A DNA stretch of 64,000 nucleotides from Bacteroidetes bacterium GWF2_35_48 (GTDB lineage Bacteria > Bacteroidota > Bacteroidia > Bacteroidales > GWF2-35-48). The notes below the pieces were generated by a model, which searched no databases, was not told the DNA's origin, and saw only the letters and a program-made list of their open reading frames with translations. Below, in pieces: positions 1-39,600 of this stretch. The position numbers and the translations under genes are program-made. Position 1 is the stretch's first letter. Each line of letters begins with the position of its first letter. The DNA is taken from NCBI GenBank assembly GCA_001769125.1, contig MEOG01000115.1, positions 1 through 64,000 of the forward strand, given 5' to 3'.

Positions 1-1842
1 AGCAGTACATATACTAATGCAGCTCTCTCGGATGCAGATGGAATTTATTGTGTGCTAACATCTGATGAAACCTGCGCAACAGGAAGTCCTGCCACATCAA
101 ACACTGTTGCAATGACTGTCAGCCCGGATGTCCCTGTGCTTCTTGTTACGGATCCAGTGCCTTCATGCAGTATTGCAATTGACATTACAGATGCGGCAAT
201 AACATCTGGCAGTTCCTTCATTTTAACTCTATCCTACTGGACTGATGCAGGAGCAACAATTCCGGTCAGTAACCCAAATGCGATAACAATATCCGGCACT
301 TATTACATTGTTGCAGAAAATGGCTGTGGAAGCGATACAGCAGATGTAAATGTATATTATAATACTTCTGCTCCATCCCTTGTTATTAACAACCCCGATC
401 CTGTTTGCAATGCTCTTGTTGATATAACAGCAGCAGAAGTAACCGCTGGAAGCAATGGTATTGTTTCTATTTCTTACTGGACAGATGCCGGTGCGCTTAA
501 TCCGCTTGTAAATCCTGATTCTATTAATTTGTCAGGCACATATTACATACAGGCAAGTAATGGATGCGGAACAGACATTGAAGCAGTGAATGTAACTATA
601 ACTACAGGATTACCCTTACTTACCATTAACAACCCTGCTCCAGTATGCGCCCCATTATTTGTTGACTTAACAGACCCTGCTGTAACAAGCGGAAGCACAC
701 AAATCGGAACATTGAGTTATTGGGCAAACAGTACTTTAAATATTCCCTTAAACAACCCTGATAGTGTTACAATAAGCGGTATTTATTATGTTCTGGCAAG
801 CAATACCTGTGGAACAGATACTATGCCTGTAGCTGTATATGTATTCCCATCCGCGCCAGAATTAGTTATTACGTTACCTGCCACAGTTTGTTCTCCATCA
901 CTGGTTGATTTAACAGCAGATACCATTATTTCAGGAAGTACAGGAATATATTCCATATCTTATTGGATGGATGCAGGTGCAACAGTTCCTTTGGCAAATC
1001 CACAAGCTGTTTCACAAAGCGGAATATATTACATACAAGCTACAAATACATGCGGAACAGATATTGAATCTGTAACAGTAAATATCAGCACAGCGCCACC
1101 GGTTCTCACTATACATAATCCAGGTGTTGTTTGCTCAGGGGGGTCAATAAATCTCACTTCTTCAGTTATTACTTCGGGTAGTTCAAATGTATTGGAGTTA
1201 AGTTACTGGATGGATAATTCAGCTTTAGTCCCACTAACGAATCCCTCAAATGTAACATCTGATGGAACATATTTTATCATGGCATGGAATGGCTGTGGCA
1301 GCGATATTCAGCCGGTACAGGTAATGGTGTCAACAGTAATACAAATTACAGCTACTATAGGCAATGAAACCTGCGAAAGTGGAAGTGATGGCAGATTGGT
1401 ACTTGTTGTTACCGGAGGTACTGCACCCTATTTATATACATGGAGCAATGGAGAAACTACTGCAACAATCAGCTCTCTCGCATCAGGCGCATATACAGTA
1501 ACCGTAACAGACGAATCGAATTGCAGCGAAACTGAACCATTCACTATTGACGCATCAACAGTTCCCTGTAATGAATTGTTTATTCCCACTATATTCACAC
1601 CTGACGGCAATGGAGAAAATGATGTTTTATATGCACGAGGCAAACGAATAGTAGAACTCGACATGATGATTTTTGACCGCATCGGAAACAAAGTTTTTGA
1701 AACAAAAGACAAAAATATAGGCTGGGATGGCAATTATAAAGACAAGCCTTTAAACTCTGCTGTTTTTGTGTATTACGTAAAAGCTATATTTGAAAATGGA
1801 GAAGTGATTGAGAAAAAAGGAGATGTTACATTGATTAGATAA
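1..1842 (+). CDS. Large T9SS-secreted surface protein, C-terminal part (CHU_C domain)
   Basis: This is the C-terminal part of a large exported adhesin-like protein; the reading frame is open from base 1, so the true start lies upstream. It holds five tandem repeats of about 80 residues, each with a PVC segment, a SGS turn, a LSYW motif, SGTYYI and a CGTD ending. One SprB-like repeat follows (TGGTAPYLYTWSNG). The last ~90 residues begin FIPTIFTPDGNGENDV and end in a short basic tail, which matches the gliding-motility-associated C-terminal (CHU_C, type B sorting) domain. Proteins of this class cross the outer membrane by the type IX secretion system and usually sit beside a PorP/SprF gene, as here. 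The paired cysteines in each repeat suggest disulfide-stabilised Ig-like folds (inference). Ligand and exact role are unknown. Confidence 0.88.
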   Translation, partial: SSTYTNAALSDADGIYCVLTSDETCATGSPATSNTVAMTVSPDVPVLLVTDPVPSCSIAIDITDAAITSGSSFILTLSYWTDAGATIPVSNPNAITISGTYYIVAENGCGSDTADVNVYYNTSAPSLVINNPDPVCNALVDITAAEVTAGSNGIVSISYWTDAGALNPLVNPDSINLSGTYYIQASNGCGTDIEAVNVTITTGLPLLTINNPAPVCAPLFVDLTDPAVTSGSTQIGTLSYWANSTLNIPLNNPDSVTISGIYYVLASNTCGTDTMPVAVYVFPSAPELVITLPATVCSPSLVDLTADTIISGSTGIYSISYWMDAGATVPLANPQAVSQSGIYYIQATNTCGTDIESVTVNISTAPPVLTIHNPGVVCSGGSINLTSSVITSGSSNVLELSYWMDNSALVPLTNPSNVTSDGTYFIMAWNGCGSDIQPVQVMVSTVIQITATIGNETCESGSDGRLVLVVTGGTAPYLYTWSNGETTATISSLASGAYTVTVTDESNCSETEPFTIDASTVPCNELFIPTIFTPDGNGENDVLYARGKRIVELDMMIFDRIGNKVFETKDKNIGWDGNYKDKPLNSAVFVYYVKAIFENGEVIEKKGDVTLIR

Positions 1843-1847
1843 AGTCA

Positions 1848-1904
1848 AACCGGGGCTTCGGCTCCGCTCAGCCACCGGTTGGGTGTCGCTCAGCCACCGA
1901 TTTG
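1848..1904. repeat. GC-rich hairpin and 22-bp-period direct repeat after the adhesin gene
   Basis: Directly after the stop codon, AACCGG and CCGGTT arms flank a GC-rich loop. The 18-base segment CGCTCAGCCACCGRTTKG then occurs twice, at 1865-1882 and 1887-1904. No T-run follows, so a standard terminator is not supported. The loop word GCTTCGGCTC recurs in the terminator-like hairpin at 30538-30603. Confidence 0.5.
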
Positions 1905-1918
1905 AATGTGTCAGCAAT

Positions 1919-1964
1919 AACCTGCGAGGTCTCTGTTGGCACGTGGGGTGCGTCCTCGGAGGTT
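1919..1964. repeat. Family B palindrome, copy 1
   Basis: AACCTGCGAGG and CCTCGGAGGTT form an 11-bp inverted repeat with one mismatch around a 24-base loop. It resembles the elements at 23813-23864 and 56980-57028, whose arms are CCTGTGAGG and CCTCACAGG. The C-G pair here replaces a T-A pair there, so pairing is kept while sequence changes. It lies between the adhesin gene and its PorP/SprF partner. Confidence 0.5.
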
Positions 1965-2009
1965 TGAGCGATATAGTAAAGAATAAAAATATTAAAAAAA
2001 ATCACATAT

Positions 2010-3035
2010 ATGAAACAAATAATAACCAGTCTGTTTTTGCTAATGGCTATACTATCGCAGGCGCAGGACTTTCATTTTTCACAGTTTAATACCATCCCCT
2101 TAGCTTTAAATCCTGCATTAACAGGTACTTTGAAAGGCGATCAGCGGGCTATTTTAAATTACAGAAGCCAGTGGGGAAGCGTTGCATATCCGTATGAAAC
2201 AGCCTCTTTGTCTTTTGATGCGGGATTATTTAAAAATAAATTAAAAACAGGATTTTTGGGAGTAGGATTATTTGTGTTAAATGATAAAGCCGGAATCACG
2301 CAACTTACAACAAACATTGTTAGTTTATCGGTAGCCTATCATGCAAAAATATCGAGGGAGCATTATCTTACTGCTGGCATATCTTCGGGAATCATTCATA
2401 AAAATATTTCAACCGGAAATCTTACATGGGATAATCAATTTGACGGCAATGCATACAATGCCTCTCTCGCTCCCGGAGAAGCATTCGATTTTAACAGTTT
2501 TATTTTGGGAGATTTCAGCACAGGTATAGCATGGTCGTATTATTCCGTAATATTTGACGAGTCGAAAAACAAAGGAGTCCATTCACAGCTTGGTGTTTCA
2601 TGGCTACATGCAAATAAGCCGGATTTAAAATTTTATAGCAAAGAGCAAATGTACTCCAGATACGCGGTGTATGGCAAAGCATCTTTTGGCATAGGAATGT
2701 CGGGTGTTGCAATAATTCCTTCGGGCTATTTTACGAATCAGGGTCCGGCAAATGAGCTTGTAGCGGGCACTTCTGTTCGTTATGTGCCCAGAGAAAATAG
2801 AAGCGTGTATTCCAAAGTGAAAGGTTCTGCAGTATCATTAGGTTTTTATTACAGAAATCAGGATGCCGTAATTTTCTCTGTCGGTCTTGAGACCGGTCGT
2901 TTTGCCATGACATTTTCGTATGATATCAATATCTCTGATTTAAAAATTGCCACCAATAAAAACGGTGCTTTTGAAATTAGTTTGAGATATACAAATCCAA
3001 ATCCTTTTATGAATAGGGGGAGTAGTTTGTTGTAG
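2010..3035 (+). CDS. PorP/SprF family type IX secretion membrane protein
   Basis: This is a 341-residue outer-membrane protein of the PorP/SprF family, which helps deliver or anchor CHU_C-type T9SS cargo at the cell surface. It has a signal peptide (MKQIITSLFLLMAILSQAQ) followed by the family opening DFHFSQFNTIPLALNPALTGT and by alternating beta strands rich in aromatic and glycine residues, ending in FEISLRYTNPNPF. Length is normal for the family (about 300-350). It lies 167 bp downstream of the adhesin fragment on the same strand, the usual pairing for SprB-like adhesins and their SprF partners. Because these genomes carry many paralogues, the partnership rests on position rather than sequence. 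Confidence 0.9.
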   Translation: MKQIITSLFLLMAILSQAQDFHFSQFNTIPLALNPALTGTLKGDQRAILNYRSQWGSVAYPYETASLSFDAGLFKNKLKTGFLGVGLFVLNDKAGITQLTTNIVSLSVAYHAKISREHYLTAGISSGIIHKNISTGNLTWDNQFDGNAYNASLAPGEAFDFNSFILGDFSTGIAWSYYSVIFDESKNKGVHSQLGVSWLHANKPDLKFYSKEQMYSRYAVYGKASFGIGMSGVAIIPSGYFTNQGPANELVAGTSVRYVPRENRSVYSKVKGSAVSLGFYYRNQDAVIFSVGLETGRFAMTFSYDINISDLKIATNKNGAFEISLRYTNPNPFMNRGSSLL

Positions 3036-3867: not shown

Positions 3868-5601
3868 ATGGCATCAAAAGAAATTAAATACAATCTCGAA
3901 GCTCGCGACCTCTTAAAAAAAGGTGTTGACGCTTTGGCAAATGCAGTAAAAGTTACATTAGGACCCAAAGGTCGCAATGTTATTATTGAAAAAAAATACG
4001 GCGCACCACAAGTAACTAAAGATGGTGTTACTGTAGCAAAAGAAATTGAACTGGCTGATGCAAATGAAAACGTTGGCGCACAAATGGTAAAAGAAGTTGC
4101 TTCTAAAACGGCTGATAAAGCAGGAGACGGAACAACAACTGCAACTGTTCTTGCACAATCAATCATTACCGTTGGTTTAAAAAATGTAACTGCCGGCGCA
4201 AATCCAATGGATTTAAAACGCGGTATTGACAAAGCTGTTGAAGCTGTTATTGAGCATCTCAACAAACAGAAAAAAGCTGTTAAAACCGACAACATTATTA
4301 AAAAAGCAGAAGTTCTTTTCAAAGAAGAAACTACTGAAGTAAGCGTTGCAGAAAAACATAAAATTTTACATGATATTATTGTAAAAGATGAGATTTCACA
4401 GGTTGGTTCCATCTCTGCAAATAATGACGTTGAAATAGGCGTAATGTTATCTTATGCTATGTCAAAAGTTGGACAGGAAGGCGTTATTACGGTTGAAGAA
4501 GCAAAAGGAATTAAAACCCATGTTGAAACCGTAGAAGGTATGAAATTCGACAGAGGATATATTTCTCCTTATTTCGTTACCAACACAGAAAAAATGGAAA
4601 CGGTTTTAGAAAACCCCTATATTCTGATTTTTGATAAAAAAGTTTCTGCCATGAAAGATTTGCTTCCATTACTTGAAGCATCTGTTCAGACAGGTCGTCC
4701 GCTGTTAATCATTGCAGAAGATGTAGACGGAGAAGCTCTCGCAACTTTAGTTGTAAATAAATTAAGAGGCTCTCTGAAAATCGCTGCTGTAAAAGCTCCG
4801 GGCTTTGGCGACAGAAGAAAAGAAATGCTTCAGGATATTGCTATTCTTACAGGTGGCACATTCATTACTGAAGACATGGGTTACAAGCTCGAAAACACAA
4901 CGCTTGAAATGTTAGGTCAGGCAGAAAAAGTTGTGATTGACAAAGACAATACAACCATTGTTAATGGTAAAGGAAAAAAAGCAGAAATCACAGGAAGAGT
5001 AAATCAGATCAAATCACAGATTGAAGCAACAAAATCTGATTATGATAAAGAAAAACTTCAGGAACGTCTTGCGAAACTTGCTGGTGGTGTAGCTGTTCTT
5101 TATATCGGCGCTGCAACAGAACTTGAAATGAAAGAAAAGAAAGACCGCGTTGACGATGCATTGAATGCTACAAAAGCTGCGATTGAAGAAGGTATTATCC
5201 CCGGTGGTGGTGTTGGTTACGTAAGAGCAATTGAAGCGCTCGAAAAACTGAAAGGCTCTAATGAAGATGAAACAACAGGTATCCAAATTATAAAACGCGC
5301 ACTCGAAGAACCGCTTCGTCAGATTGTTGAAAATGCAGGTCTCGAAGGCTCTGTTGTTGTTCAGAAAATCAAAGAAGGCAAAGACGATTTCGGATACAAT
5401 GCAAGCACAGACAAATACGAACCTCTCTACAAAGCTGGTGTTATTGACCCAACCAAAGTTGCTCGTATAGCACTTGAAAATGCAGCGTCTATTGCAGGAA
5501 TGTTCTTAACAACAGAATGTGTTATTGTTGAGAAAAAAGAAGATGCTCCTGCAATGCCAATGGGTAATCCGGGCATGGGCGGCATGGGTGGCATGATGTA
5601 A
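3868..5601 (+). CDS. groEL: GroEL chaperonin with an unusual ~31-residue insertion
   Basis: This is the 60-kDa chaperonin subunit, an ATP-driven protein-folding ring that works with GroES. Conserved parts include [24 protein letters not shown] (residues about 31-54), the ATPase segment [12 protein letters not shown] with Asp87, [28 protein letters not shown] near the C-terminal equatorial domain, and a GGM-rich tail. The protein has 577 residues where about 545 is usual. The excess lies at residues about 141-177, just before the conserved [14 protein letters not shown], where the family normally has about a dozen residues; here there are about 43, charged and probably helical. The frame stays open and flanking conservation resumes at once, so it is an in-frame insertion rather than a frameshift. 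A rho-independent terminator follows. Confidence 0.97.
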
Positions 5602-5763: not shown

Positions 5764-6000
5764 ATGAATAATTCTATTGTAACAATAGACCCCGATATAC
5801 AAAGCGGAATCCCTGTCTTTACAGGCACCCGTGTACCTATAAAAAGTTTTTTTGATTATATCTCTACTGGAGAAAGCATAGAAACTTATTTACAAGACTA
5901 TCCATACGTGAATAAAGAGCAAATATATTCTTTGATTGCTTTTTTAGGGAACTGGTTTGAAAAATCAACTCATACTTTTCTAAATGAAAATCCTGCTTGA
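5764..6000 (+). CDS. DUF433 protein, likely antitoxin
   Basis: This 78-residue protein matches the DUF433 family: the opening VTIDPDIQSGIPVFTGTRVPIKSFFDYI and the later EQIYSLIAFL helix are characteristic. DUF433 proteins are small winged-helix-like DNA-binding proteins that usually precede a PIN-like DUF5615 gene and are regarded as antitoxins. Here the next gene overlaps the end of this one by 17 bases, so the two are translated as a unit. A promoter with both boxes lies just upstream. The antitoxin role comes from the family and arrangement, not from any experiment. Confidence 0.85.
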   Translation: MNNSIVTIDPDIQSGIPVFTGTRVPIKSFFDYISTGESIETYLQDYPYVNKEQIYSLIAFLGNWFEKSTHTFLNENPA

Positions 6001-6307
6001 CGAAAATCTACCAGTTAAACTTAAATTCAACCTGACAGAATTTGATACTTATACTGTCAGAGATATGTCTTGGAATAGCTATAAAAACGGAGCTCTATTA
6101 AAAGCAGCGGTAGAAAACGAATTTATTTGTTTTATCACATCCGATAAAAATATACAGTTTCAACATAAACTATCTGAACTTAACTTATCTTTTATAATTT
6201 TAAATATTAAACTTCTTAAGTGGGAGTACATTGAACCGTTAGTGGAGAAATTAAAAGAGACTATCAAAACAGCAGAAATCGGGAAAATTTATTCAATACA
6301 CAATTAG
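5984..6307 (+). CDS. DUF5615 PIN-like protein, likely toxin
   Basis: This 107-residue protein starts MKILLDENLPVKLK, the hallmark of the DUF5615 PIN-like family, where the first acidic residue (Asp6) belongs to the expected metal site. ITSDKN near residues 51-56 supplies a second acidic residue (Asp54). Related proteins are thought to be ribonuclease toxins controlled by the DUF433 partner encoded just upstream with a 17-base overlap. The PIN fold is shortened compared with VapC proteins, so ribonuclease activity is inferred. It is the last gene before a 365-bp gap holding a palindromic element. Confidence 0.85.
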   Translation: MKILLDENLPVKLKFNLTEFDTYTVRDMSWNSYKNGALLKAAVENEFICFITSDKNIQFQHKLSELNLSFIILNIKLLKWEYIEPLVEKLKETIKTAEIGKIYSIHN

Positions 6308-6672: not shown

Positions 6673-9660
6673 ATGAAAACATGGGTTTTATCTGTTTTGT
6701 TAGGAGTCATCGCAACTTCTTTTTCAAAGGCACAAACAACAACATCTGTCCTTTCTGAAGGAAACTGGTACAAAATTGCAGTAACTGAAACCGGGATTTA
6801 TAAAATATCCTTTTCATACCTGCAAACTTTAGGCATTAATCCCGCAAGCATTAATCCGCAACACATAAAATTATTTGGAAATGGTCCCGGAATGCTGCCC
6901 GAATTAAACTCCGCAAGCAGACCCGATGATCTCAATGAAATTTCAATAAAAGTTATTGGAGAAAACGATGGTGTTTTTGATGCAGATGACTACATCCTTT
7001 TTTATGGAGAATCGCCTGTGAAATGGAAACACGACACAATAGTAGATAAATTTGAACATACTGTAAATCTTTATGCAGACAACACTTGTTATTTTTTGAC
7101 CATTGATACTGATTCCGGCAAAAGAATTACAGAAAGAGCTTCTTCAACACTTACACCTACACACACTGTTACGAGCTTTGATGATTACTGGTATCACGAA
7201 ACAGAATTGTATAATTTCATTAAATCAGGAAAAAGCTGGTTCGGTGAAAAATTTAAGACCACACTGAGTTATACGTTCCCTGTTAATTTTCCAAATATTG
7301 TTACAAGCAGTCCTGTTAAGCTGTATGCTAGACTTGCAGCACGTTCAGCAAGTCCAACTCAATTTACTTTTTCTTCTAATTCACAAAATATTTTAACAGT
7401 AAATGTACCCGCTGTAAATATTGATAGTTATACCAATTCGTATGCAGCTTCAGCAAGCGGGAGTATCAGTTACACCTCTTTTTCAAACTCCATTGATTTA
7501 AACATTGCATATTCTCCAAGCGATACATCATCCACTGGATGGCTCGACTATATAACATTAAATGCAAGGAGAAATTTAAATTTTACCGGCTCTCAAATGA
7601 AATTCAGAGACACACAAAGCGTTGGTACGGGCAATGTTTCAAGATTTACAATTACTGATATTTCTTCAAACATAGAAATTTGGGATGTTACAAACAAACA
7701 GGAAATTTATTCACAACAGGAACAGACCCCTGTTATTAATGGAACATTTTCATTTTGTGTTCCTACAGATTCATTAAAAGAATTTATTGCTTTTGATAAT
7801 TCTGCATATCTGACACCTCAGTATATTGGCACTGTTCCAAACCAAAATCTTCACGGATTACCGGGCACAAATCTATTGATAATTACACCGCAACTATTTT
7901 TAAACGAAGCAACACAACTTGCAAATCATCACATTTCTCACGATAATATTTCAACGCATGTTATAACAACAGAACAAATTTACAATGAATTTTCATCGGG
8001 AGTACAAGACGTGACGGCCATCCGCGATTTTGCAAGATTTATTTATACAAAAGGAAGCGAGACAACAGATTCTTTGCGGTTTGTTCTTTTATTCGGAGAT
8101 GCTTCGTATGATTATAAAAACAGAATTTTGGGAAATACGAATTTTGTTCCCTCCTTTCAAAGTTTAAATTCTTTTGATCCGACACAAAATTATACAACCG
8201 ATGATTTTTTCACCTTGCTTGATGCTAATGAAGGAACAGTATCAGGACAAGAAACAATGGATATTGGTATTGGCAGAATCCCTGTGAAGACCCAACCCGA
8301 AGCGCAAAATGCAGTTACTAAAATTATAAATTATTCTACAAATCAAAATGCAACCGGAAACTGGCGTACTGATGTCTGTTTTATTGCAGACGATGCGGAA
8401 GATGTTACCAGCCATCAAACACAGGCAGAATATCTGGCAGATGAATTTGACACACTTAATCCATGTTTTAATATTAATAAAATTTATCTTGATGATTTTA
8501 ATCAGGTAACAAATGGAACTGAAGCAAGCTACCCTGATGCAACAACTGCTATTAATAATCAGGTTCAGGAAGGAGCATTAATCGTAAACTATACAGGTCA
8601 TGGTAATGAATACAGACTATCTCACGAAAATGTTCTTACAATACCGGATATTCAATCCTGGCAAAACGCAAGCAAACTTCCTTTATTTATAACGGCTACC
8701 AGTCAATTCGGAAGGTTTGACAACCCGGAATTTTTATCAGCAGGAGAACATCTTGTTTTGCATACAAACGGTGGAGGAATTGGATTATTGACACAAACAA
8801 GACTGACGTATTCTACTCCGAATTTCTTGTTAAACCAAAGCATTTTAAAACATTTATCAAATTATAATCATACGCTGGGAGATGTTATTCGTTTGGCAAA
8901 AAACGACCCTGTTACCGGAGCATCACTAAACAAAAGAATGTTTATTCTGTTTGGTGATCCGGCGATGAAGCTCACCGCCCCGAAATTTGAAGTTTTTACA
9001 ACACATATTAATGGCGTAGATGTTCAATATCCGCATGATTCTTTGATAAGCGGACAAAATGTAAGTATAAGTGGATTTGTAGCTGATAACAACGGACAAA
9101 TTCTTACAGGATTTAATGGCGATTTGCATTACAGATTGTACGATGTAGAGCGCATGGATACTACACTCGGCAATGATGGAAATACGCCTTTAATTTTCAA
9201 TCGGCAGGATAGCGTATTAATCGAAGGTACAAGCAATGTTATTAATGGAGAATTTACGATTAATTTAACAGGACCGGCTTATTCTAATGTTTCGTATGGC
9301 AATGCAAGATTAAGCTATTATGCCTCAAACAGCACAGAAGACGCAATGGGCTGCTACGACGATCTTGTGATAGGAAACCCGCTTGCCAGTTCGTCAAATC
9401 TCTCAGCGAGCACGATTGAAGCTACGGTATATCCGACAATTGTCAGCGATTACATTCATTGCAACATAAGTGATTCTAAAAATGAAAATGGATGGATTAG
9501 CATCACAGACATATCCGGAAGAAATTTATACAACGAGCAATTTAATTTTTCAGAAACTAAATCCATACAAATATCAATGGAGAATTATACAGCCGGAATG
9601 TATATTTTAAGCATTAATACAGCCAATGGAAGTGTATCAAAAAAAATTATTAAAAATTGA
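6673..9660 (+). CDS. porU: PorU-like C25 (gingipain family) protein, catalytic Cys replaced by Ser
   Basis: PorU is the cell-surface sortase of the type IX secretion system, which removes C-terminal sorting domains and attaches cargo to A-LPS. This 995-residue protein has a signal peptide (about residues 1-20), an N-terminal beta region (YKIAVTETGIYKIS, ILFYGES), a C25 peptidase domain at roughly residues 400-760, and a C-terminal sorting-like domain (last ~80 residues, MYILSINTANGSVSKKIIKN). The catalytic-histidine motif NYTGHGNE is present (His643). The cysteine motif, normally TATCEF, reads TATSQFGRFD, with Ser677 (AGT, 8701-8703) in the cysteine position. One base change separates AGT from TGT. 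The protein may therefore be inactive or a paralogue; alternatively this is a base-calling error. The gene stands alone, without the porV often found next to it. Confidence 0.82.
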   Translation: MKTWVLSVLLGVIATSFSKAQTTTSVLSEGNWYKIAVTETGIYKISFSYLQTLGINPASINPQHIKLFGNGPGMLPELNSASRPDDLNEISIKVIGENDGVFDADDYILFYGESPVKWKHDTIVDKFEHTVNLYADNTCYFLTIDTDSGKRITERASSTLTPTHTVTSFDDYWYHETELYNFIKSGKSWFGEKFKTTLSYTFPVNFPNIVTSSPVKLYARLAARSASPTQFTFSSNSQNILTVNVPAVNIDSYTNSYAASASGSISYTSFSNSIDLNIAYSPSDTSSTGWLDYITLNARRNLNFTGSQMKFRDTQSVGTGNVSRFTITDISSNIEIWDVTNKQEIYSQQEQTPVINGTFSFCVPTDSLKEFIAFDNSAYLTPQYIGTVPNQNLHGLPGTNLLIITPQLFLNEATQLANHHISHDNISTHVITTEQIYNEFSSGVQDVTAIRDFARFIYTKGSETTDSLRFVLLFGDASYDYKNRILGNTNFVPSFQSLNSFDPTQNYTTDDFFTLLDANEGTVSGQETMDIGIGRIPVKTQPEAQNAVTKIINYSTNQNATGNWRTDVCFIADDAEDVTSHQTQAEYLADEFDTLNPCFNINKIYLDDFNQVTNGTEASYPDATTAINNQVQEGALIVNYTGHGNEYRLSHENVLTIPDIQSWQNASKLPLFITATSQFGRFDNPEFLSAGEHLVLHTNGGGIGLLTQTRLTYSTPNFLLNQSILKHLSNYNHTLGDVIRLAKNDPVTGASLNKRMFILFGDPAMKLTAPKFEVFTTHINGVDVQYPHDSLISGQNVSISGFVADNNGQILTGFNGDLHYRLYDVERMDTTLGNDGNTPLIFNRQDSVLIEGTSNVINGEFTINLTGPAYSNVSYGNARLSYYASNSTEDAMGCYDDLVIGNPLASSSNLSASTIEATVYPTIVSDYIHCNISDSKNENGWISITDISGRNLYNEQFNFSETKSIQISMENYTAGMYILSINTANGSVSKKIIKN

Positions 9661-15784: not shown

Positions 15785-18700
15785 TTACTCAATAATAATT
15801 TTTCCTCTGAATGATTTTTCGCCTTTTAACTCAATAGTATAAAATCCCGGTAACAAATTTCCTTTATTCAAAACAAAATAATTTCCTGTAATATTTTCTT
15901 TTTCATACACTACTTTTCCTGTAATATCTGTAACAAATAAACAGTAGGGCTTGTTTTCAGTATTTGTAAAATAGACAGAAGTTTTTTCATTAAAAGGATT
16001 CGGCCAAATAGAAATACCTGAATGATTCGTTTCATTCGCATTAACCACATCAATAATTCCATTGTCTTCTATATTCGAAAGGCTCTGACTGAATGGCCCG
16101 GCCATATCTTTTGCATTACCGCTTGCCCAGCAGCTATCGCTTTTCATTACGGCAATTCTGTAATAAAATGCGCCCACCGGCTGATAATCTGTAAACGTTG
16201 TCAGGTTGCTTTGTATCGCGCCAATAGGTAACATAAAATCGGGACTTGTACCTCTGTAAATAGTATAAGAAGGAAACGTAAATCCCTCATAATTTTCCCA
16301 TATTAAATTATAAACTCCGACTCCTGTGTTTACCGTTAAATGCATTGTTTTGTGAGCTTCGCTTAAATCAGATTCATTTCCGCAGGTATCAATAAGAGAT
16401 ATTTTATATCGGTCTGATTGCTGCGCAGGATTTGATTCTGTATCAATATACATCGTCATTGCAGAATAGGGAATTGTTGCAAGAAGTTCATAAACATTAC
16501 TAGCGGTGGTTTCCTTATACAATTTATACATTACGATCCCTGATTCAGATTCAGGTTTTTCCCAAATTATCTTATTAAAATTTAAACTGTCAACAGTAAC
16601 CAAACATAAATCCTGCTGAGAATAAGGATGTGCAACATTCACATATATAGAATCCACTCCATAACTGTTGCTTCCGGTGCAACTAACAGAATAATATCCA
16701 GATTCTGCCGCAGTAGTAGTTTGTGTTGTTACGCCATTCGACCATTGGTATTGAAGATACCCGTTTCCTGCATCAAGTTGAACACTTTCTCCATAACAAA
16801 AAACAGTTGAGCCCGTTGAACTTATTGTTACATTCAATGGAGTCGGCTGCCCGACAACAAAACTTGCATTCGCGGTACAATTATTCGCGTCCTGAATAGT
16901 TACACTATAAGTTCCTGCAGCTAATTGTTCGATATCCTGAATTTGCGCTCCATTCGACCATGTATAGGTATAAGGAGGTGTTCCTCCCGTTGGAGTTAAG
17001 TCAATAGTGCCATTTGATAAACCATAAAAAGTTACATCCTGTATAGAAGAAGTAGCTGTTATCTGTGGAGGATTCTGTAAGGTAACACTGGCTGTTTCGG
17101 TACACATATTTGCATCCGACACTGTTACAGAATATGTGTTTGCATTTCTGTTCAATAACGAAGCATAAGGAGAACCATTATTCCAATGATAGGTATAAGG
17201 CTGCGTGCCACCGCTAACATTTGTTATTGCATTTCCATTATAACTACCAAAACAAAGTGGATCACTATGGGTCATATTAATTTGCAGTTGGGCTGGTTCA
17301 AAAACCTGAAAAGAATCTACAACAAAACAATTCAATTGATCTGTTATAGTAACAGAATACATTCCCGCACTAAGATTTTGTGCCATATAATTCGTCTGAA
17401 TAGGATTTGTGCTCCACGCCACAGATAAAGGAGCATCTGGTGAACCTGCTGAAATAGTAGCATACCCGTTATTCCCTCCAAAACAATTTGGCGAATAAAC
17501 AATTAAACTAGTGATATACGTATTAGATGGATTACTTATCGTAATAAATTCGTTAACACTGCATCCTGTATTTGTATTTGTAACTGATACCTGATAATAA
17601 CCGGCAGGAATATTAAATGCTGTATCATTTTGCTGATGAATCTGATCATTCCAAATATAGCTGTATTGTCCCACATCTGGAGGATTTATACTGCTAACCC
17701 ATACTCTCCCATCAGAATTACCACAAGAGGGTGCGATAGAACCGATATTAATATTTTGAATGATTTCATTATTTGGGCTAATATTGACAGTAAGCAAATT
17801 AGAAAACACGCAGCCATTATTATCTGTAACAGTTACAAACAGGGTATCAAAACCAGAAGCAAGATTTGAAACAACATTGCCTGTTGCAGAATTAGCCCAT
17901 AAGTAAGTATAAGGAGAAGCCCCCCCTGTAACATTTGCTGTAGCTGTTCCATCATTTCCACAAACTTCATCTGTTGCAGTGAGGCTAATATTTAGCGGGG
18001 CAGGATTTACAATTGTAAAATTTTCCGTAACAGAAATTCCATTTTGGTCTGTAACAACAACCTGATATGAGCCCTCGCTGTAACCCAAATTATAAAAAAC
18101 AATATCCTGAGAATTGCTTATCAGGTTGCCATAATAATACCACTTATAATTATATGGAGGTAAGCCACCTGTTGCTGTAATATCAATATATCCATCCATA
18201 GTATTCGCACATGTATTTGGATTTACAACCGAACTGAGGAATAAATCATTTACGTAAATAGTATCTGTGAAAGAAGAAGAACAACCAAACTGGTTCGTTG
18301 CAGTAAGAGAAACAGGATATATTCCTACAGTTGTATATAAATGTGAAGGATTTGCAGATGTACTGGTAGAACCATCTCCGAAATTCCATAAATAACTATT
18401 AGCATTTTGAGTAAGATTGGTAAATGTAACACTTGTATTTTCAGGAATCACATATTGCGAAGCCATAAAATTTGTTACAGGATTACGTACACGGATAAAT
18501 CGGAACGAAGAATCCCTTCCACAACCATTCTCTACAACTAATTTTACATTGTATTCGCCACCCTGTGCGAAAGCATGAGAAACATTCATGGTATTTGCAG
18601 TAGTTCCGTCTCTAAAATCCCAGAAGTAGGTGAAATAATTTGCAGCAAGATCCTGATCCGAATATTTAAAAAGAATCGGTTCTCCGGCGCAAATTTCGTC

Positions 18701-20596
18701 TGTATCAACATGAAACCATGGAGAGGGAGTATTTGTACTGCTAATTGTAACCGTTGTTTCAACTGTATCTATTCTGCCACATGCATTTGTAGCGACAACA
18801 TACGCATTAAAAATACCCGTATCCTGATAGGTGTGCAATGTGTAATTCTCAGTACTTGTAGCGCCATCTCCAAAGTGCCAAACATAAGAAGTACCACCCA
18901 CAATTCTGAATGTTACCGCATCTCCAAGGCATCCTGAATAATCTTGATTTCCATCATTTCCTTCAGTTGTGGAGTTATCTACATAATAAAATGTTTCATT
19001 AAGAGGATCATTTTCTACAACAATTGTATCTGTTAGCGTTTTGACATTCCCGCAGGCATTCGTTACAGTAAATGTAAAGATATAAGATCCTTCTTCAGGA
19101 TACTGATGAGAAACAACTTCAATCAGTGAATCAGAATATTCAGAAACATGCATTAATGAATCTCCATCACCAAACCAGATAGAATAATCATAACCACTTT
19201 CTAACATTCTGTTACCATCATCAAAGAAATAAACATTTTCTCCCGGACAAATAAGTCTAGGTATCGCATTAATATTTGATACAGGATAGGCATTGGGGTT
19301 TGCGATTACCCATTTTTTTACTGTATCCTTACCATTGCAATTGTTTGTTGCAATAAATTTAATTTCATGAACACCATTATTTAAAAAAGTATGAACAGGA
19401 TTTTTTTCATCGGAAAAAAAACCATCATCAAAATCCCATTGTGTAGTTATGCTCCCTTGTCCATTTACATAAGCTTGAAATGCAATTTCTTCCCCAGTAC
19501 AAATGTACATAGTGTCTTCATCCCAGTTGTTATTTAAAAAACCAGCCATTGCATAAGGCAAGTCAGAAGGATTGTAGCCAATGGTAATCGTTTGCTGTGA
19601 AGTATCAGAATTTCCACAACCATTGCTAACAATAAGCGTAGATGTGTATGTTCCGGTATCTCCGTATAAATATTTTGTTTCCATTACAGAGGCTGTATTT
19701 CCATCGCCAAAATTCCATAAAAAATTTGTTCCACCAGATGCAGAAAAACGAATAGGTTCATTGGGACAAAATACTTGCTCGGGAATCGAAAAATCAGCAT
19801 TGGCTGGCACATTTTGGGCTATATCTATATTTGCAGAATAAGAATTAGAAATACCACAAATATTCATCACGGTTAGTGTTACATTTCTAAAACCTAATGA
19901 AGAATATGAATACACGGGATTTTGTTCAGAAGAAGTATAGCCGTCATCAAAATCCCAGGAGTAGGTATGATAAAAATTATTACTTGTAAAAGGTATTGCA
20001 TCGCCTGCACAAAACTGGAAACCTGAAGGATTAAAATATGGTTGATTTGGTATAGCAGAATTAGAAACAACGACCTGTTGTGTTACGGAATCATATCCGC
20101 ATTCGGTATAAGAATAAAGAGTAATATTGTAGATTCCTGGCGAATCAAAAGATATTGACGGCCAGTTATATGTGAAGTTTTCCGCATTCCCTAAATTCCA
20201 CCTTATAGAATCATATTGATTATTAATACCAACATTAAATACTTCATTCGGACAAACGGTGTCATTAGGATGTATCACAAATCTATTGGCTCCCTTAACA
20301 AATATATCTTTATGGTACTCTCCCAAATAATTCCCCATGGCATCATACACTTTTAGATCAACATTATAAGTACCTGAATAAAGAAAAGTGTGTGTGGTAT
20401 TTTCTGTTGCTGCAGTTTGACCATCGCCAAAATTCCAGTAGAAAAAAGTTCCTCCTGTTGAAGTATTCGTAAAAATAACCTCCAGCGGATAACATCCCTG
20501 AAAAACATTAACAGTAAATTCTACTTGAGAAAAAACTTTTTCGGTATTTATTATCAGAAATACTAATAATAAAAATAATAAATTTTTAATTTTCAT
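15785..20596 (-). CDS. Large T9SS-secreted PKD/SprB repeat surface protein
   Basis: The 1603-residue exported protein starts with a signal peptide (MKIKNLLFLLLVFLIINTEKVFSQ). About nine PKD-type domains follow (residues roughly 25-780), marked by WNFGDG or WDFDDG motifs. Next come about six SprB-like repeats (about 785-1260) with GG.PPY.Y.W signatures, an Ig-like segment with FCYGESVQLDAG, and two fibronectin-III-like domains (about 1330-1500). The end (ISIWPNPF... LPGFYTIELKGEKSFRGKIIIE) is a type A T9SS sorting domain. Such proteins are displayed on or released from the surface and may bind polysaccharide or act in adhesion. No catalytic domain was seen. It has its own terminator and no close operon partner. 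Confidence 0.9.
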   Translation of the reverse strand: MKIKNLLFLLLVFLIINTEKVFSQVEFTVNVFQGCYPLEVIFTNTSTGGTFFYWNFGDGQTAATENTTHTFLYSGTYNVDLKVYDAMGNYLGEYHKDIFVKGANRFVIHPNDTVCPNEVFNVGINNQYDSIRWNLGNAENFTYNWPSISFDSPGIYNITLYSYTECGYDSVTQQVVVSNSAIPNQPYFNPSGFQFCAGDAIPFTSNNFYHTYSWDFDDGYTSSEQNPVYSYSSLGFRNVTLTVMNICGISNSYSANIDIAQNVPANADFSIPEQVFCPNEPIRFSASGGTNFLWNFGDGNTASVMETKYLYGDTGTYTSTLIVSNGCGNSDTSQQTITIGYNPSDLPYAMAGFLNNNWDEDTMYICTGEEIAFQAYVNGQGSITTQWDFDDGFFSDEKNPVHTFLNNGVHEIKFIATNNCNGKDTVKKWVIANPNAYPVSNINAIPRLICPGENVYFFDDGNRMLESGYDYSIWFGDGDSLMHVSEYSDSLIEVVSHQYPEEGSYIFTFTVTNACGNVKTLTDTIVVENDPLNETFYYVDNSTTEGNDGNQDYSGCLGDAVTFRIVGGTSYVWHFGDGATSTENYTLHTYQDTGIFNAYVVATNACGRIDTVETTVTISSTNTPSPWFHVDTDEICAGEPILFKYSDQDLAANYFTYFWDFRDGTTANTMNVSHAFAQGGEYNVKLVVENGCGRDSSFRFIRVRNPVTNFMASQYVIPENTSVTFTNLTQNANSYLWNFGDGSTSTSANPSHLYTTVGIYPVSLTATNQFGCSSSFTDTIYVNDLFLSSVVNPNTCANTMDGYIDITATGGLPPYNYKWYYYGNLISNSQDIVFYNLGYSEGSYQVVVTDQNGISVTENFTIVNPAPLNISLTATDEVCGNDGTATANVTGGASPYTYLWANSATGNVVSNLASGFDTLFVTVTDNNGCVFSNLLTVNISPNNEIIQNINIGSIAPSCGNSDGRVWVSSINPPDVGQYSYIWNDQIHQQNDTAFNIPAGYYQVSVTNTNTGCSVNEFITISNPSNTYITSLIVYSPNCFGGNNGYATISAGSPDAPLSVAWSTNPIQTNYMAQNLSAGMYSVTITDQLNCFVVDSFQVFEPAQLQINMTHSDPLCFGSYNGNAITNVSGGTQPYTYHWNNGSPYASLLNRNANTYSVTVSDANMCTETASVTLQNPPQITATSSIQDVTFYGLSNGTIDLTPTGGTPPYTYTWSNGAQIQDIEQLAAGTYSVTIQDANNCTANASFVVGQPTPLNVTISSTGSTVFCYGESVQLDAGNGYLQYQWSNGVTTQTTTAAESGYYSVSCTGSNSYGVDSIYVNVAHPYSQQDLCLVTVDSLNFNKIIWEKPESESGIVMYKLYKETTASNVYELLATIPYSAMTMYIDTESNPAQQSDRYKISLIDTCGNESDLSEAHKTMHLTVNTGVGVYNLIWENYEGFTFPSYTIYRGTSPDFMLPIGAIQSNLTTFTDYQPVGAFYYRIAVMKSDSCWASGNAKDMAGPFSQSLSNIEDNGIIDVVNANETNHSGISIWPNPFNEKTSVYFTNTENKPYCLFVTDITGKVVYEKENITGNYFVLNKGNLLPGFYTIELKGEKSFRGKIIIE

Positions 20597-30658: not shown

Positions 30659-33600
30659 TTAATAAACAATCTTCCTCACGTGCCTTTCGCCTTTTGATTC
30701 AACAACAATAAAGTAAGCACCGGCAGCAAAGTGGTGCATGTTGTAACGGAAGCTGTTATAGCCTTTTTGTACATTTACTTTCCGGATTCCGAGTTCACGC
30801 CCGAGACAATCATAGAGCTTTAATGATAACCCTTCTTCTACTTCTGTTGATAGTTGAACCACTATATCTCTGTTATCTGCATCATAATAGGCATTGAAAA
30901 AAGTGCCTTGTGCAGTTATTTCCTGTGAACAGGAAGCTGAAACAACCTGAGAAATCGTAGCATTACCATCGTAATCTGTTTGAATTAAGCGGTAGTAATT
31001 TATCGCGGGGTTTGCCTGTAAATCATAATACGAATACAGCTTAATTTCGTTGCTGTTACCTGCGCCTGTTACATTTGCTATGGTAGTCCAGTTTGACATA
31101 TCCTCGCTTTTCTGAATGAGGAAATACGCATTATTGATTTCAGTAAATGTAGTCCATTTAACCTCTATATTTCCATTTTGACATTCAGCCATCAGACCAG
31201 CCATTTCAACAGGGAGAGGATTTTTTCCGGTTTTTGAGCCGAAAGTAATGGGGGAATAAGTTGTGAATGTAGTCCCGGTAAGATGACCTTTGTTCGCACC
31301 ATCAGAAACCCATGCATTATCTCCTTTTTTATCCCAAAGTGCTCCTCCGTAGTGACCAACAGCAATATCTGAAACTTCTGATGCATTCATACCGCTTCTT
31401 GTCATATCCAATGTATAGATAGTAACATCGCGGGTTTGCGGTGCTCCACCTGAAGCTTCAATATTCCAGTACTCAACACTGCTAACATGGTGCAAGCCTG
31501 CTTCCATAACATTTGACCAGAAAGGGACATTCAAATCCAGCAAAGTAGAGCGGTGCTTGTAACGCGCAGTATATTCATGCGTAACCAAACCGGCAGAATT
31601 ATTCATGTTGACAGGTCCGCATGCCTTAACAGTTCCCTGTACATTACCTGTAGGAAATGTGAAATTATCATTTCCGATCTTCTTAACTGTAGCATCCACA
31701 AAAGAATTGTCTGAATACCCTGAAGTTGTCGCTTGATCTCTGAATATTACAGTCTTTGCAAGACTAGGGTTCAAGAAACCGGAACGGTCGAAAATAAAGC
31801 GCATATTCGGTCTTAAAAATGACCTGCCACCATAATTAGGAGGCGTAACTGCATCAGCATATCCATAAGACATCATATAATTTCCGGTAGCAGTAAAATC
31901 AGTTGAATTAACCTTGAAATAATTTTGCTCCGCACAATAAGTACCATTATCTCCCCATGTAATTTCAACAATCAGATTTCTTGTTCCGTCATATATAAAA
32001 TCATCCACATCAAATACAATCCAACCTGCTTCTGCAGGCATTGAATAAGGATTTGCGCTGAAAACCGGTGCTGCTGCTATAATCGTAAATGCTGCATTTG
32101 GCAACGAATTCAGCACAGTGTGGTCAACTTTAATCGTAAAATTATTAAAACTTCTGTGTGCAACTGTAGTTGTAAACTGACTTACATCAATTGCAAGATG
32201 TGTTATTTTCTTTACATTACCAAGTTCAGCATTTGTGTACAACATTTGTGTTTTGTTGTTTTCATAATAGTTATAGAAAGGACCTGTTGCTCCGGCGTTG
32301 ACAATGCCTGTTCCTGCTGTTAATACAGAGCCATTCATTATACCATAAGACAAAGACATATTAGTTTTAATATCTATATCATCACTTATATAAATAGTTC
32401 CCGGAACATTTGACCCGTTTTTATTATCCAAAGAAATGTTTTCAAAAAATTGAGAACCGACTTTATTTGAATGAACAATCTGGGTATTGCCTGTTCCTAA
32501 TAATTTAATAACAGGTGTTGTATTTGCCCAAGTAATTGTTCCCAAATTTGTCCAATCTTTCAGACATTCAACAGCAGTATTTCCAGTAAGACTTAATGTT
32601 GTACCGCTGTTAATCTGCATATTTTTGGTTTTGTATGTTTTACCCGTAACAATTTCAAAAACACTGTTAGAAACTTCTGTTTCTGCAATACTTCCACTGC
32701 TTACAGTTGCATTAAATTGGGCTGTAGGTGTTCCGGAACCAAAGGGGTGGAATTTAAACTTCGCATTTGTATAAGTTCCTGAACCTAAAATATGCCCTTT
32801 TGCACCGTCAGTTGTTGAGCCAATCACAATAATTTTATTATTATCATCGGTCATAATCAGTGTTCCGTTATTGGTAATATCTCCGGTAACCATAATGCCT
32901 GAATGGTCGGGGGCTTTTAAGATATCCACATCATCAAAAGAGGCAGGGCAGGAGGCAGATGTAATTGTCCATCTTAATGTATTCAACCCGTTTGCCAAGC
33001 CATTAACGGTAGCTGCCGGAGATGCATTATTCGGATTATAACTTGAAACTGTACCCAAAATTACACTCCATGCTCCTGTACCAACAGTTGGCGTATTTGC
33101 AGCCATAACAGCAGAATTGCCTGAAAGAAGGGTTTGATCGAGACCTGCATCAGCAATAGTAGGCATCACATTTGTTATTACCACCTGATCTGAAGATACG
33201 CAACCATTGTGCGTCATTGTCCATGTTAATGTATTTGCACCACTATTTAAATCAGAAACCGTTGTGTTGTTAAGATTTGGGTCAGCAAATGTTCCTGTTC
33301 CTGTCCAAGCTCCTGTACCCGCAGGAGGCGCATTTCCGGCCAATGTAACATTTGGATTCGGGCAAGCTGTGGGCTGATCGGGACCTGCATTCGCATAATT
33401 CGGAGTTACATAGCAACTGCGTGTTGCCTGAACCGTGTTTCCATAACATCCCTGGTTAATCTTTCCACCATTGTAATCCTGCTCATTTGCATAAGCATCT
33501 GCTGTATTCCCTTTATCAATACAAGAAGAGTAGAAACCTGCATAAGAAGACCATGAACCGCCAGTCTCATTATATGGAGGCCAACTTCCACCTGCATAAG

Positions 33601-36600
33601 TACTGCTGTTTGCCATAGATTTCAAATGGAAATCTGTTCCTGGATTAACAAATTGCGGATTTGTAACACAATCGCTGTTTCCATAAGAGGTATTATTCCA
33701 AGTGATGGAATCGGAATAATTAACTGCTGTGTGTTTAACAAAATTTGTATTCCCATTTTTAAAATATGTATTAAACCCTGAAGAAGTACTTATATTCACA
33801 TCCGAACGCATTGCATAATATTGATCTCCTGAACCCGTATTGGCTACAAAAATATTATTTTGCACCAAATGACCTGAACCAGCAGCAATATATAAACCTG
33901 AACCATTATAAGAATAAGAAGGAGCTGTTGCATAAGTAATACTGAGTTCCCAGTTAACTATTGTACCAACATCAGAACCAGCACCATCGCAAACAAGTAA
34001 TTTCCAAGTACCATTTGTATTCTTTCCATTAAGAGCAGAAAGTGCTTCCACCGGAATATAAGTTCCTGTAAATGGTGCAACTCCTGCAGAAATATGTGTG
34101 GCAGCCTGATCATCAAACCATGTGTCTGTAAAATTATCTCCAGAACTGCCGTTGTTAACAGCCAATCCTACCTGTGTGCCATCAGGATGCCTGAGGTATA
34201 TCTTTAAATCCCAATCATAAGTATGATTAATTTTAATTCTGACATTTACATCCTGAATAATTTGAGACTGCGTTACAGATATATTACTTTCAGTGAATGT
34301 AGGACAAGCACCATCTGGGATTGCAATATTTACAGTTCCCGAAGTCGGATTAGGAGCAATAACAGCACTGCCTCCCGTTACCGTTGACGAACCATTTCCA
34401 TAGCAAGTATTATTCTTTATGGTAGAAGTTGCAGTATTCGTAATATAAATCCCATGATCTTTGTGGTTGTAACATAAGTTATTCTTAATGGTAACACTAT
34501 TAATCCCGGTCTGAAGTTCAATACCATATTTTGCAGTATTATAGCACTTGTTGTATTCAATAACAGAAGTTGCAGAAGTTCCACTTTGACGAATGTTTGT
34601 AGTGCCACAATCGTGTATAATATTTGAAGAAATAGTATCATTAGTCCCAACTGTCCAGATACCAACTATTGTAGCATTTTTTATTTCAAATCCTTTAACA
34701 GTAACATAATCAATTGCACCAGCAGCATCGTTAATATACAATCCATAATTAAAACCGGTAGCATCAATAACAGGAGCAGCACCCGGAGCAGCTTCAAAAC
34801 GAAGTCTGTTTGCAGCAGTAGGATTAAAATTCTTATTTATATCTAATCCTTCGCTGTAACTGCCATCAAAAACACGGATTGTTTTATTTGCATCGAAATT
34901 TGTTGCACCCCACCATGCCCAAAGACCGTTAACAGCACTTGTAATTGTCGGATGATCATCTTCTGAAGGATTTTGCTGTTTAACAGGGATAATATTGCGC
35001 GTTGCAATTGTAACAATATTATTACTGGTAGCATTTGGTGTAACGCCATTGCTTACAACCAAAGTATTATTCGGATAATTTCCTGCAGGGAATGTAAATG
35101 AAGCTGAAACGAAATTGGCAGCAACCAAAGTTCCTGAAATACCCCCAAGGGTTGCAGTGGGGTCAATTAGATTCGTTCCCTGAATAGTAACAGTTCTGCC
35201 CCTGTCTTTATAGAGTGTAACCTGATTCCCGGCTCCCGGATCTTCAATTGTTGGTGCTTCCTTTGATTTAGATGCTTGAGAAGTACCTCCATAACACCCG
35301 ATATTAACAATACTTTTATTCGGAGCAGGTTCGTCAGAAACAGCATCAGAAGGATTCCCGGCATCAAGATTTGGGGAGTCTTCTGTATCATAAGTCCATG
35401 TTCCACCTATTTGTGATAATGGAGGCCATTCTCCACCCGTGTAAGATCCTGCTTTTGAATTGAGATGGAAATCAACTCCGGTATTTATAAATTTTGAATC
35501 AGCGCAAATATTATTGGCAACAACAGCATTCCATGCTGCAATGGTTGCATAAGGTGTACCATTATATTTAACAACATTCGTATTTCCGTTATTATATATA
35601 TTATTGTATCCCGAACTGCCGGTATTAATGGTTGTAGCAGTCTGAAAAGCGGTAAACTGGTCGCCGCTACCGGAACGAGCCTGAAGCATATTGTTTTTCA
35701 CAATTGTTCCTGTACCAGACTGCACGTACAAAGCATTTGCTCCATTGGGGGCAATGTTTCCTGTAATAACTACATCATCAATATTCCACCCGCAGTATGT
35801 TACAGAAGCATCTGTAACACCTAACCCGAAGCGGAATTTAAAACTTGCATTCGCGTAAGCACTCACGTCAAAATCCTGATACAGCCAAGAGTAATCAGCA
35901 ACAGAACTTGTATTCTGCCAAATATTTACCCATGAAGATCCGTTCCATACATCTATATATACATGATCCCAGGTAGGACTTTCAATTCCAAGCCAGCGAT
36001 AGAAGGTTAGGTGTTGATTTGTATAACCAGTAAGATTAATTGTAGGAGAAGTTGCATAATACGTGGATGTCATATCATTTGCATAGCAACCACCAAGAAT
36101 ATACCCCAAAACGTAATTATCACCAGTTGGTGAATTATCATTTGCAGGATCCTGAGAACCTGAACAGCTAGACGAACCGGTAGTAGAACCTCTTGCCCAG
36201 TTCGTACCAAGAGTCCAGCCTGTTGCTGTACTGAAATCATCGCTCCAAATACTTGCTGCTGCGCCCCCTGAACCGTTATTAACAGAACTATTGTTCTGAA
36301 CAACCGTATTGGTAGAACTCACAACATGGATACCATGCGAGCCATTATTGTAACAAAGGTTATGGTGTATCCCAGACTGGGTTCCTGAATTTATCAAATA
36401 AATCCCCGTGGCTCCCGAGTTATAACACTTATTATAACCGATTTCATTGCTGCTGCCGTTTACATATATATTAGATGTAGTAGCCCCATAAACCGTAAAG
36501 CCCTGAATTTTAACATAAGTTTCTGAAATGTTGAATCCATAAGCATTCCCTGTGGCATTAATTATCGGTGTTTCATTGGCTGCCGCTTCAAAAACAAGCC

Positions 36601-39600
36601 TGCCTGAAGAAGTTGGAACAAGCGCTGAATTTGGTGCTACTATTCCGGTATAATTTCCGCCCGAATAGGTATAAACCCGAACAATAACATCATTATCAAA
36701 GGGTGTAGTGCCCCAAACCGTATAAACATCGGCAATAGCGGCTGTTATTGAAAGGTATTGCTGTCCTCCGTCTCCATCTACAGTAAACAGATATTTTCTT
36801 GTCCATGTGGAAATGGTGTTTGAATTCAGGGTCGTTCCGCAGCCAGCAGTAGTTGCGCGAACCCTGTAGAAATACTGCGTGTTTGCGGTCAACCCTGTAA
36901 CCGGGTAAGTGGTAACCAATCCAACATTGAGATTATTATATCCAGCCACAAATGATGAGAAACTGCTGTTGGTAGAAACATCTAAATAATATGCTGTTGC
37001 CCCAGTGAGTGTATTCCAGTTGGCATTAAATGATGTACTGGTCTGTCCTGTACCATTTGTAGCTACAGGTCCATCGTTTGGAATAACCGTTATGACAAGA
37101 TTAGCACAGGTTGTGATATTACAATCGCCTTCTGCATACGCATAATAGGTAGCACTGGTTGTTGGCGAAACCGTAGCCGGGCTTCCCTGTGTAGCGGTTA
37201 GAGAAATATAATCTATTTCCATGTTTACACCGGTGTTACCGCACCAGTCGAACCTCCAGCCTGTAATATTTCCACCCAAGGTATAATCCGGATCACTTCC
37301 CATATTGACATTTGCTACGTGCCATGCTCCGTCACTTACCAAGGCAGCAGAAGCAGATTCACCGCCAACAGCACCACCATGAGCAGTGTTATAGAAAAAA
37401 ATCTCAACGGTTCCGGCTGTTCCTGAAACAACCCGGTAACGCATTTGCACATATTTATAAATAGAGGGGTCAAATGAACCGAGACCGCTCATATAGATCA
37501 TCGGGTCACCATTAAAAGATGTAACATTTAATATTCCACCGGAAGAATTTACAGTTGTCCCATCTGTACCATAAGGCTGCGAATTCCAAGGCTGAATAAA
37601 TACCGGACCACATGTATTATAGCCAAATTTCCATACAGCACCGCTTCCCAATGAACCGCCATTCACGGTTAAGTTGGTAGAATTGCCTGCGCATATCGGG
37701 TTAGTAGATGCAGAAATGCTGGTGGGAGCGGTTGAATTGGATTTTACGGTAACAGCCAATGTACGAGCAGCACTAGTTCCGCATATACCTGTTGCCGTTA
37801 CAGAAATATTGCCATTTTGACCTGCAGCACCTGTTGTTACAATAATGGAAGTAGTACCACCACCTGCAGTGATTGACCAGCCAGTAGGAACTGACCAGTT
37901 ATACGTTGTGGCATAAGTAACTGCTGAAATACTGTAAGTCTGGCTTGTGAGAGCCGGACACTGATTTGGAATACCTGTAATAGCACCCGGTTGTGCAGGT
38001 GTTGCAACAACCGTTACCGCCTTTGTCTGTGCAGCACTTGTTCCACAAGAATTACCTGCAGTTACGGTTATGTTTCCGTTCTGACCACCACTTCCAGTTG
38101 TAACAGAAATTGATGTTGTACCTTGACCGGAATTAATTGTCCAACCTGCGGGTACATTCCAATTATAAGTGCTCGCATTAGGAACAGCAGAAATACTATA
38201 TGTTTGACCTGATAATCCCGCACACTGTGCTGCCGTGCCACTAATTGCTCCGGGTGTAGCAGGAGTTGCAGGACTGACGGTTACTCCAACTGATGTTCTT
38301 GATACAGAAACACAACCTGAAGAGGCATAGGTTATTTTTGTATACCCATTATCAATTTTTCCAACCATTGTACCACCGACAGGATTTGGCATAGATGAAT
38401 TTCCGTCTATAGTTGTCCCATTAGTTACACCACCTATATATCCTGAACCTCCACCCCCACCTTGTGTATCTGTACCTGTTGAACCAGAGGAAAGTGTTCC
38501 ACCACCGTAATAACCGCCCCCTCCACCGCCACCATCTCCAAAATTGGTGCTACCTCCGTAACCAAGTCCCCCTCCTGATCCTGCTGCGCTTTGAGTTGCA
38601 TCGTAAGTAGCATAACCAACACCAGTTGTTCCACCTCCATGCCCATAGCTATCTCCAGAATCTTCGCCACCGCCGCCGCCTCCACCTGCAATAATAACCC
38701 GATTTGCATATGCTGTACCACCGTATCTTACATCCGTTGCGCCGCCACCGCCATTGCCTGGCTCAGTTGCATCAAAGGCATATCCGCTACCTCCACCATT
38801 ATATCCACCGGCGGCAATGCCACTAGTTGAAGATGCTCCATATCCTCCTACATAAATATAAACAGTATTGCCGGGAGTAACAGCTAGTGTTCCTCTAGAG
38901 TATCCACCTTTTCCACCATATCCACTTGAGGTATTCCCACTCAGCCGTTGTCCTCCTCCTTCAGCTCCCCAAACTTCAAAATCAAGGCTTGTTACGCCAG
39001 CCGGTACAACAAATGTCTGCTGTCCCCCTGTAAAATTATAAGTCTGGGTTTGTGCTGATATAGCTTCGGCATAATAGGTTGTTGTACTTCCTGGTGAAAC
39101 ATTGTAATTTACACCGCTGGCACTGTTTCCAATAGGTGTTCCCCCAGTAGAAACTGTATACCAATTTATTGTATTACCCGCAGATGTGCCATTCAGATTT
39201 GAAGAATTACTCGGGCAAATCGTCCCCGGAGTAGCTGTTACTGCGGTAGGTGATGCCAAGCCAGATGTTACAGCCTTCGTAGAAGCGGCACTGATCCCGC
39301 ATGAATTCTGAGCAGTTACTGTAATATTTCCATTTTGCCCACAAGCACCTGTTGTTACGGTTATTGAGGTCGTACCACTTCCCGCCGTAATACTCCAACC
39401 TGTAGGTACATTCCAATTATATGTAGTGGCATTTGGAACTGCCGAAATACTATATACCTGACCAGCAAGATTTGCAAATTGTGCAGCAGTGCCACTTATC
39501 GCTCCCGGTGTAGCCGGGGTACCTGGATTAACGGTTACTGCTTTAGTTTGAGCAGAACTGGTACCGCAGGTATTACCGGCTGTTACTGCTATATTGCCAT

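Follow-up and report, generated by a model that had tools for sequence, protein, structure and literature searches.

PorU is the one well-characterised sortase of the T9SS, where it trims and anchors exported surface proteins, and the gingipains RgpB and Kgp are C25 proteases among the cargo of such systems. The C690A mutant of PorU from P. gingivalis has been described as inactive (PMC5121618, PMC5562754). PorU is kept latent by dimerisation, a hairpin of one subunit blocking its partner (PMC10202324), and the PDB entry 6za2 is entitled as a dimeric latent PorU. PorU and PorZ retain their C-terminal sorting domains (CTDs) uncleaved (PMC10202324), and an extra hairpin is common to the CTDs of these two proteins and absent from the cleaved CTDs of cargo (PMC11285876).

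The gene considered here lies in a window of 64,000 nucleotides from Bacteroidetes bacterium GWF2_35_48 (contig MEOG01000115.1), which is the whole stretch of DNA that was analysed. It is most probably (at a probability of roughly 0.8) a paralogue of PorU, the T9SS sortase, that has been maintained without a catalytic function. The gene, its relevant parts and its conserved neighbour are, in window coordinates:

3868-5601, forward strand: groEL, the upstream neighbour of the paralogue, conserved in the two species of the genus.
6673-9660, forward strand: short-form PorU paralogue (putative pseudo-sortase), 995 aa; open reading frame with matches to PF01364 and NF033707.
7876-8973, forward strand: Peptidase C25 domain, residues 402-767; PF01364 (353.1 bits) and model matches to RgpB and PorU 6za2.
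8599-8601, forward strand: His643 of NYTGHG, the catalytic His position, retained as in all 12 short forms.
8701-8703, forward strand: Ser677, codon AGT, at the catalytic Cys position in the alignment to P. gingivalis PorU.
8794-8796, forward strand: Gln708, which is Thr in 93% of full-length PorU and is changed in all 12 short forms.
9427-9657, forward strand: type A T9SS CTD, residues ~919-995; PF18962, TIGR04183 and length comparison.

In a phmmer alignment with P. gingivalis PorU (6za2), Ser677 (AGT), which lies within FITATSQFGRFDNP, falls on the Cys of TATCDF and thus on the column of the catalytic Cys690, and NYTGHG is aligned with NYAGHG, so that His643 takes the place of the catalytic His. 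The first-pass annotation had placed a serine at the catalytic Cys position of C25 sortases, had described the histidine motif as intact and had called for an alignment with characterised PorU sequences; this alignment bears out both observations. PF01364 (Peptidase_C25) scores 353.1 bits against a cut-off of 23, and the Cys-His dyad of Peptidase family C25 is incomplete, the Cys being absent; by analogy with the C690A mutant, catalytic activity would have been lost. The PorU model NF033707 matches with 1022.9 bits (curated cut-off 420), the match spanning only model positions 1-869 of 1095. Since the catalytic Cys was tested and is absent, the paralogue ought not to be classified among the PorU sortases. 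The CTD models PF18962 and TIGR04183 score 34.8 bits (cut-off 27) and 39.2 bits (cut-off 23), respectively, and the N-terminal segment MKTWVLSVLLGVIATSFSKAQ resembles a signal peptide, as judged by eye. A promoter and terminator scan yielded sites no more frequent than expected by chance.

Residues 24-903 are homologous to the PorU sortase (NF033707, 6za2), with which the paralogue shares the C25 domain, the His and a T9SS CTD. It differs from PorU in lacking the catalytic Cys and the long-form N-terminal domain NF052318, in having about 116 residues fewer before the CTD, and in a CTD of 76 instead of ~94 residues. Like the gingipains, it combines the C25 fold with a type A CTD that would direct the protein to the surface; unlike them, it has no nucleophile, and it is closer to PorU, phmmer having found PorU only. 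The homology to PorU2 (NF052324), a putative T9SS sortase, is weak, and an identity as PorU2 was rejected at 205.7 bits, far under the 450-bit cut-off. The AlphaFold model (mean pLDDT 72.4, pTM 0.72) matches RgpB with a Z score of 31.5 over 320 residues and PorU 6za2 with a Z score of 28.0 over 753 residues, which indicates that the PorU fold is retained; with a pLDDT of ~61-73 in that region, the model does not support conclusions on the geometry of the active site.

AGT is one base away from TGT, so that a sequencing or assembly error at this base could in principle mimic the loss of the Cys, and the first-pass annotation had insisted that such an error be ruled out. However, in the second species of the genus the syntenic orthologue (L045, genome G001), which shares 54% identity with the window paralogue and likewise immediately follows groEL, carries Thr (codon ACC) in place of Ser677. 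An isolated base-call error is untenable in view of this orthologue from a second, independent assembly; moreover, the next residue is Gln and Leu in the two genes, whereas Glu, Asp or similar residues prevail here in full-length relatives, and further members of the clade described below are also without the Cys. As judged from these sequences, an error as the cause of the missing Cys is effectively excluded. In a third genome (SMBSF25, L123), the paralogue is represented by its first 111 residues only, ending with the contig short of the catalytic site. Between groEL and the paralogue, the window carries a DUF5615 gene (5984-6307, forward strand); in G001 the corresponding gap is ~250 bases, and no DUF5615 gene was seen there.

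A search of the contigs of the genome (98% complete) gave eight C25 matches. The best of them is encoded on contig C69, has 1271 aa, carries the motif TATCEF and represents a full-length PorU; after it come a 422-aa protein read as PorV and then an IspF-like gene (names by sequence reading), and upstream lie a GldJ-like and a PorP/SprF-like gene (named in the same way, not by family search). The second species of the genus has a Cys-bearing canonical PorU in the same arrangement, adjoining porV; the window paralogue, unlike canonical PorU, is not adjacent to porV. The presence of a full-length, Cys-bearing PorU on another contig makes the window gene a second, paralogous copy. That the protein might be a pseudo-sortase or a paralogue, and that the true PorU might be encoded at another locus, had been among the readings offered initially, together with the suggestion to search the genome for a Cys-bearing copy, and the gene beside porV on C69 is such a copy. 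The genomes checked that contain a complete short form also carry full-length PorU. A recent duplication of the genus's own PorU was considered but found no support, as the canonical copy falls among full-length PorU, apart from the paralogue.

In the genome from which the window comes, the type A sorting domain was matched at least 150 times. Further T9SS-related genes were seen in the window itself, namely a type B (CHU_C/SprB) cargo gene (52-3035, forward strand) with a PorP/SprF shuttle gene directly after it, and a gene (15785-20596, reverse strand) whose 1603-aa PKD/SprB product has a type A CTD. The window also contains a 3746-aa open reading frame (30659-41899, reverse strand).

The window paralogue falls into a clade of 12 short-form proteins from three Bacteroidales families, which has a support of 98/98 in a tree built without the catalytic columns (99 and 99/99 in earlier sequence sets). 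The members differ from full-length PorU in architecture: the conserved core is preceded by ~32-55 residues (median of 178 in full-length PorU), core and CTD are separated by 26-29 residues (27 in the window paralogue) versus 143, and the CTD, measured in 11 short forms, comprises 76 residues in all but one (74) versus a median of 94, the 76 residues of the window paralogue being counted from Tyr920. The initial reading as a paralogue is supported; what it had missed is that the short forms constitute a clade of their own, with another architecture.

In family f68, a third PorU of ~990 aa is present in most genomes beside a tandem full-length pair, and in family f110 the short form was found in one genome. 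At f68 loci (L157:11541-15788 and others) the short form adjoins a glycogen-phosphorylase-like gene (~1415 aa), which was found in most loci with enough sequence; the window genus has groEL instead. Genome G404 contains two short forms in tandem, L203:4587-7535 with Ser and L203:7699-10716 with Cys at the nucleophile position. It should be noted that the wide searches covered ~390 genomes and scored the best two candidates per genome, so that third-ranking short forms may have been missed; in the phylum-wide sample, no further match of full short-form length was present among the matches listed (to E 1e-230). No published description of a Cys-less short-form group was found in the literature searched, subscription papers being outside its scope.

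Each of the 120 full-length PorU rows in the comparison has Cys in the catalytic column, and thus Ser677 is not a product of chance. Tandem PorU pairs occur in many relatives, with Cys in both copies wherever the site is covered; full-length pairs of this kind are common in the order (L050, L058, L060, L163-L168, L170-L172, L175, L176). A second, highly divergent kind of Cys-less PorU homologue was observed in family f14 (L100:87-2714, reverse strand; L213:1823-4753, forward strand; genomes G014 and G130), where it is a third copy beside the tandem full-length pair in each genome. It reads ISNG-IGDFF at the site and has a dN/dS of 0.155; in a quick tree its branch is long and lies outside the short-form clade.

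Across the 12 short forms, the Cys position is occupied by S, T, C, S, G, G, G, C, C, G, A and S, and the Cys has thus been lost in nine. All 12 retain His643, Glu652 and Asp683, and all 12 have replaced Thr708 (present in 93% of full-length PorU). Under parsimony, the pattern takes a minimum of three changes if one loss was followed by two regains, and four losses of the Cys if regain is disallowed; parsimony does not separate these two histories, and repeated loss within the clade is tentatively favoured. The three short forms that retain the Cys (L157, L158 and L203_7699), which share architecture and clade with the window paralogue, imply that the clade is not uniformly dead, and these proteins may be active cargo peptidases.

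The residues found at this position also bear on whether the window protein could work as a serine or threonine peptidase, with Ser677 as nucleophile and His643 as base. Ser or Thr is found in four members (the window paralogue, L045, L203_4587 and L263), the His is universal in the clade, and the catalytic domain is well conserved. However, five members have Gly or Ala, which are incapable of acting as a nucleophile, the change of Thr708 extends to the whole clade, and we know of no C25 peptidase with a Ser nucleophile. An active Ser/Thr peptidase is therefore improbable.

The loss of the nucleophile might also mark a gene decaying on its way to a pseudogene. The window paralogue and L045 differ with pN 0.298 and pS 0.756, dS being saturated, so that dN/dS cannot be given for this pair and is unavailable as an argument against decay. 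Nevertheless, the open reading frame is intact and full-length in both species at 54% identity, with a signal-like N terminus and a CTD, and 54 (window) and 56 (L045) of 58 conserved catalytic-domain columns are kept. In addition, the one close pair of Cys-less short forms, L205 and L206, has a dN/dS of 0.21 and is under purifying selection. Decay thus appears very improbable, and a pseudo-sortase within the short-form PorU paralogue clade is the best reading.

As for the function of such a pseudo-sortase, the CTD of the short forms is cargo-like and falls short of the full-length PorU CTD by ~18 residues, which suggests an exported type A cargo processed by PorU. The paralogue would cross the outer membrane as a PorV-dependent T9SS type A cargo, and its CTD would be removed by the true PorU. 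As the nucleophile is absent, the protein most likely works by binding, and at the surface it would bind rather than cleave its ligand, for which a CTD or substrate peptide, LPS, or PorU itself are candidates.

One specific form of the non-catalytic reading is a regulator that acts on PorU in trans, either as a heterodimer partner or as a decoy for substrate or A-LPS. This would be in line with the latency of PorU by dimerisation (PMC10202324), with the co-occurrence of full-length PorU and complete short forms in the genomes checked, and with the retained fold. However, the compact, cargo-like CTD suggests release or anchoring and not residence with PorV. A role as a PorU regulator is possible but doubtful, and that of a surface binding or structural protein is somewhat more likely. 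It is rather unlikely, though conceivable, that in several Bacteroidales families a T9SS-secreted dead copy of the sortase regulates PorU in trans, as a heterodimer partner or decoy, and that the nucleophile has been lost repeatedly because binding is what is selected.

One practical consequence concerns annotation: Cys-less short forms lie far above the cut-off of the PorU equivalog model and would be named T9SS sortase PorU. For the biology of the family, the retention of the fold and of the His despite a probably repeated loss of the nucleophile suggests that the sortase scaffold serves a purpose other than catalysis.
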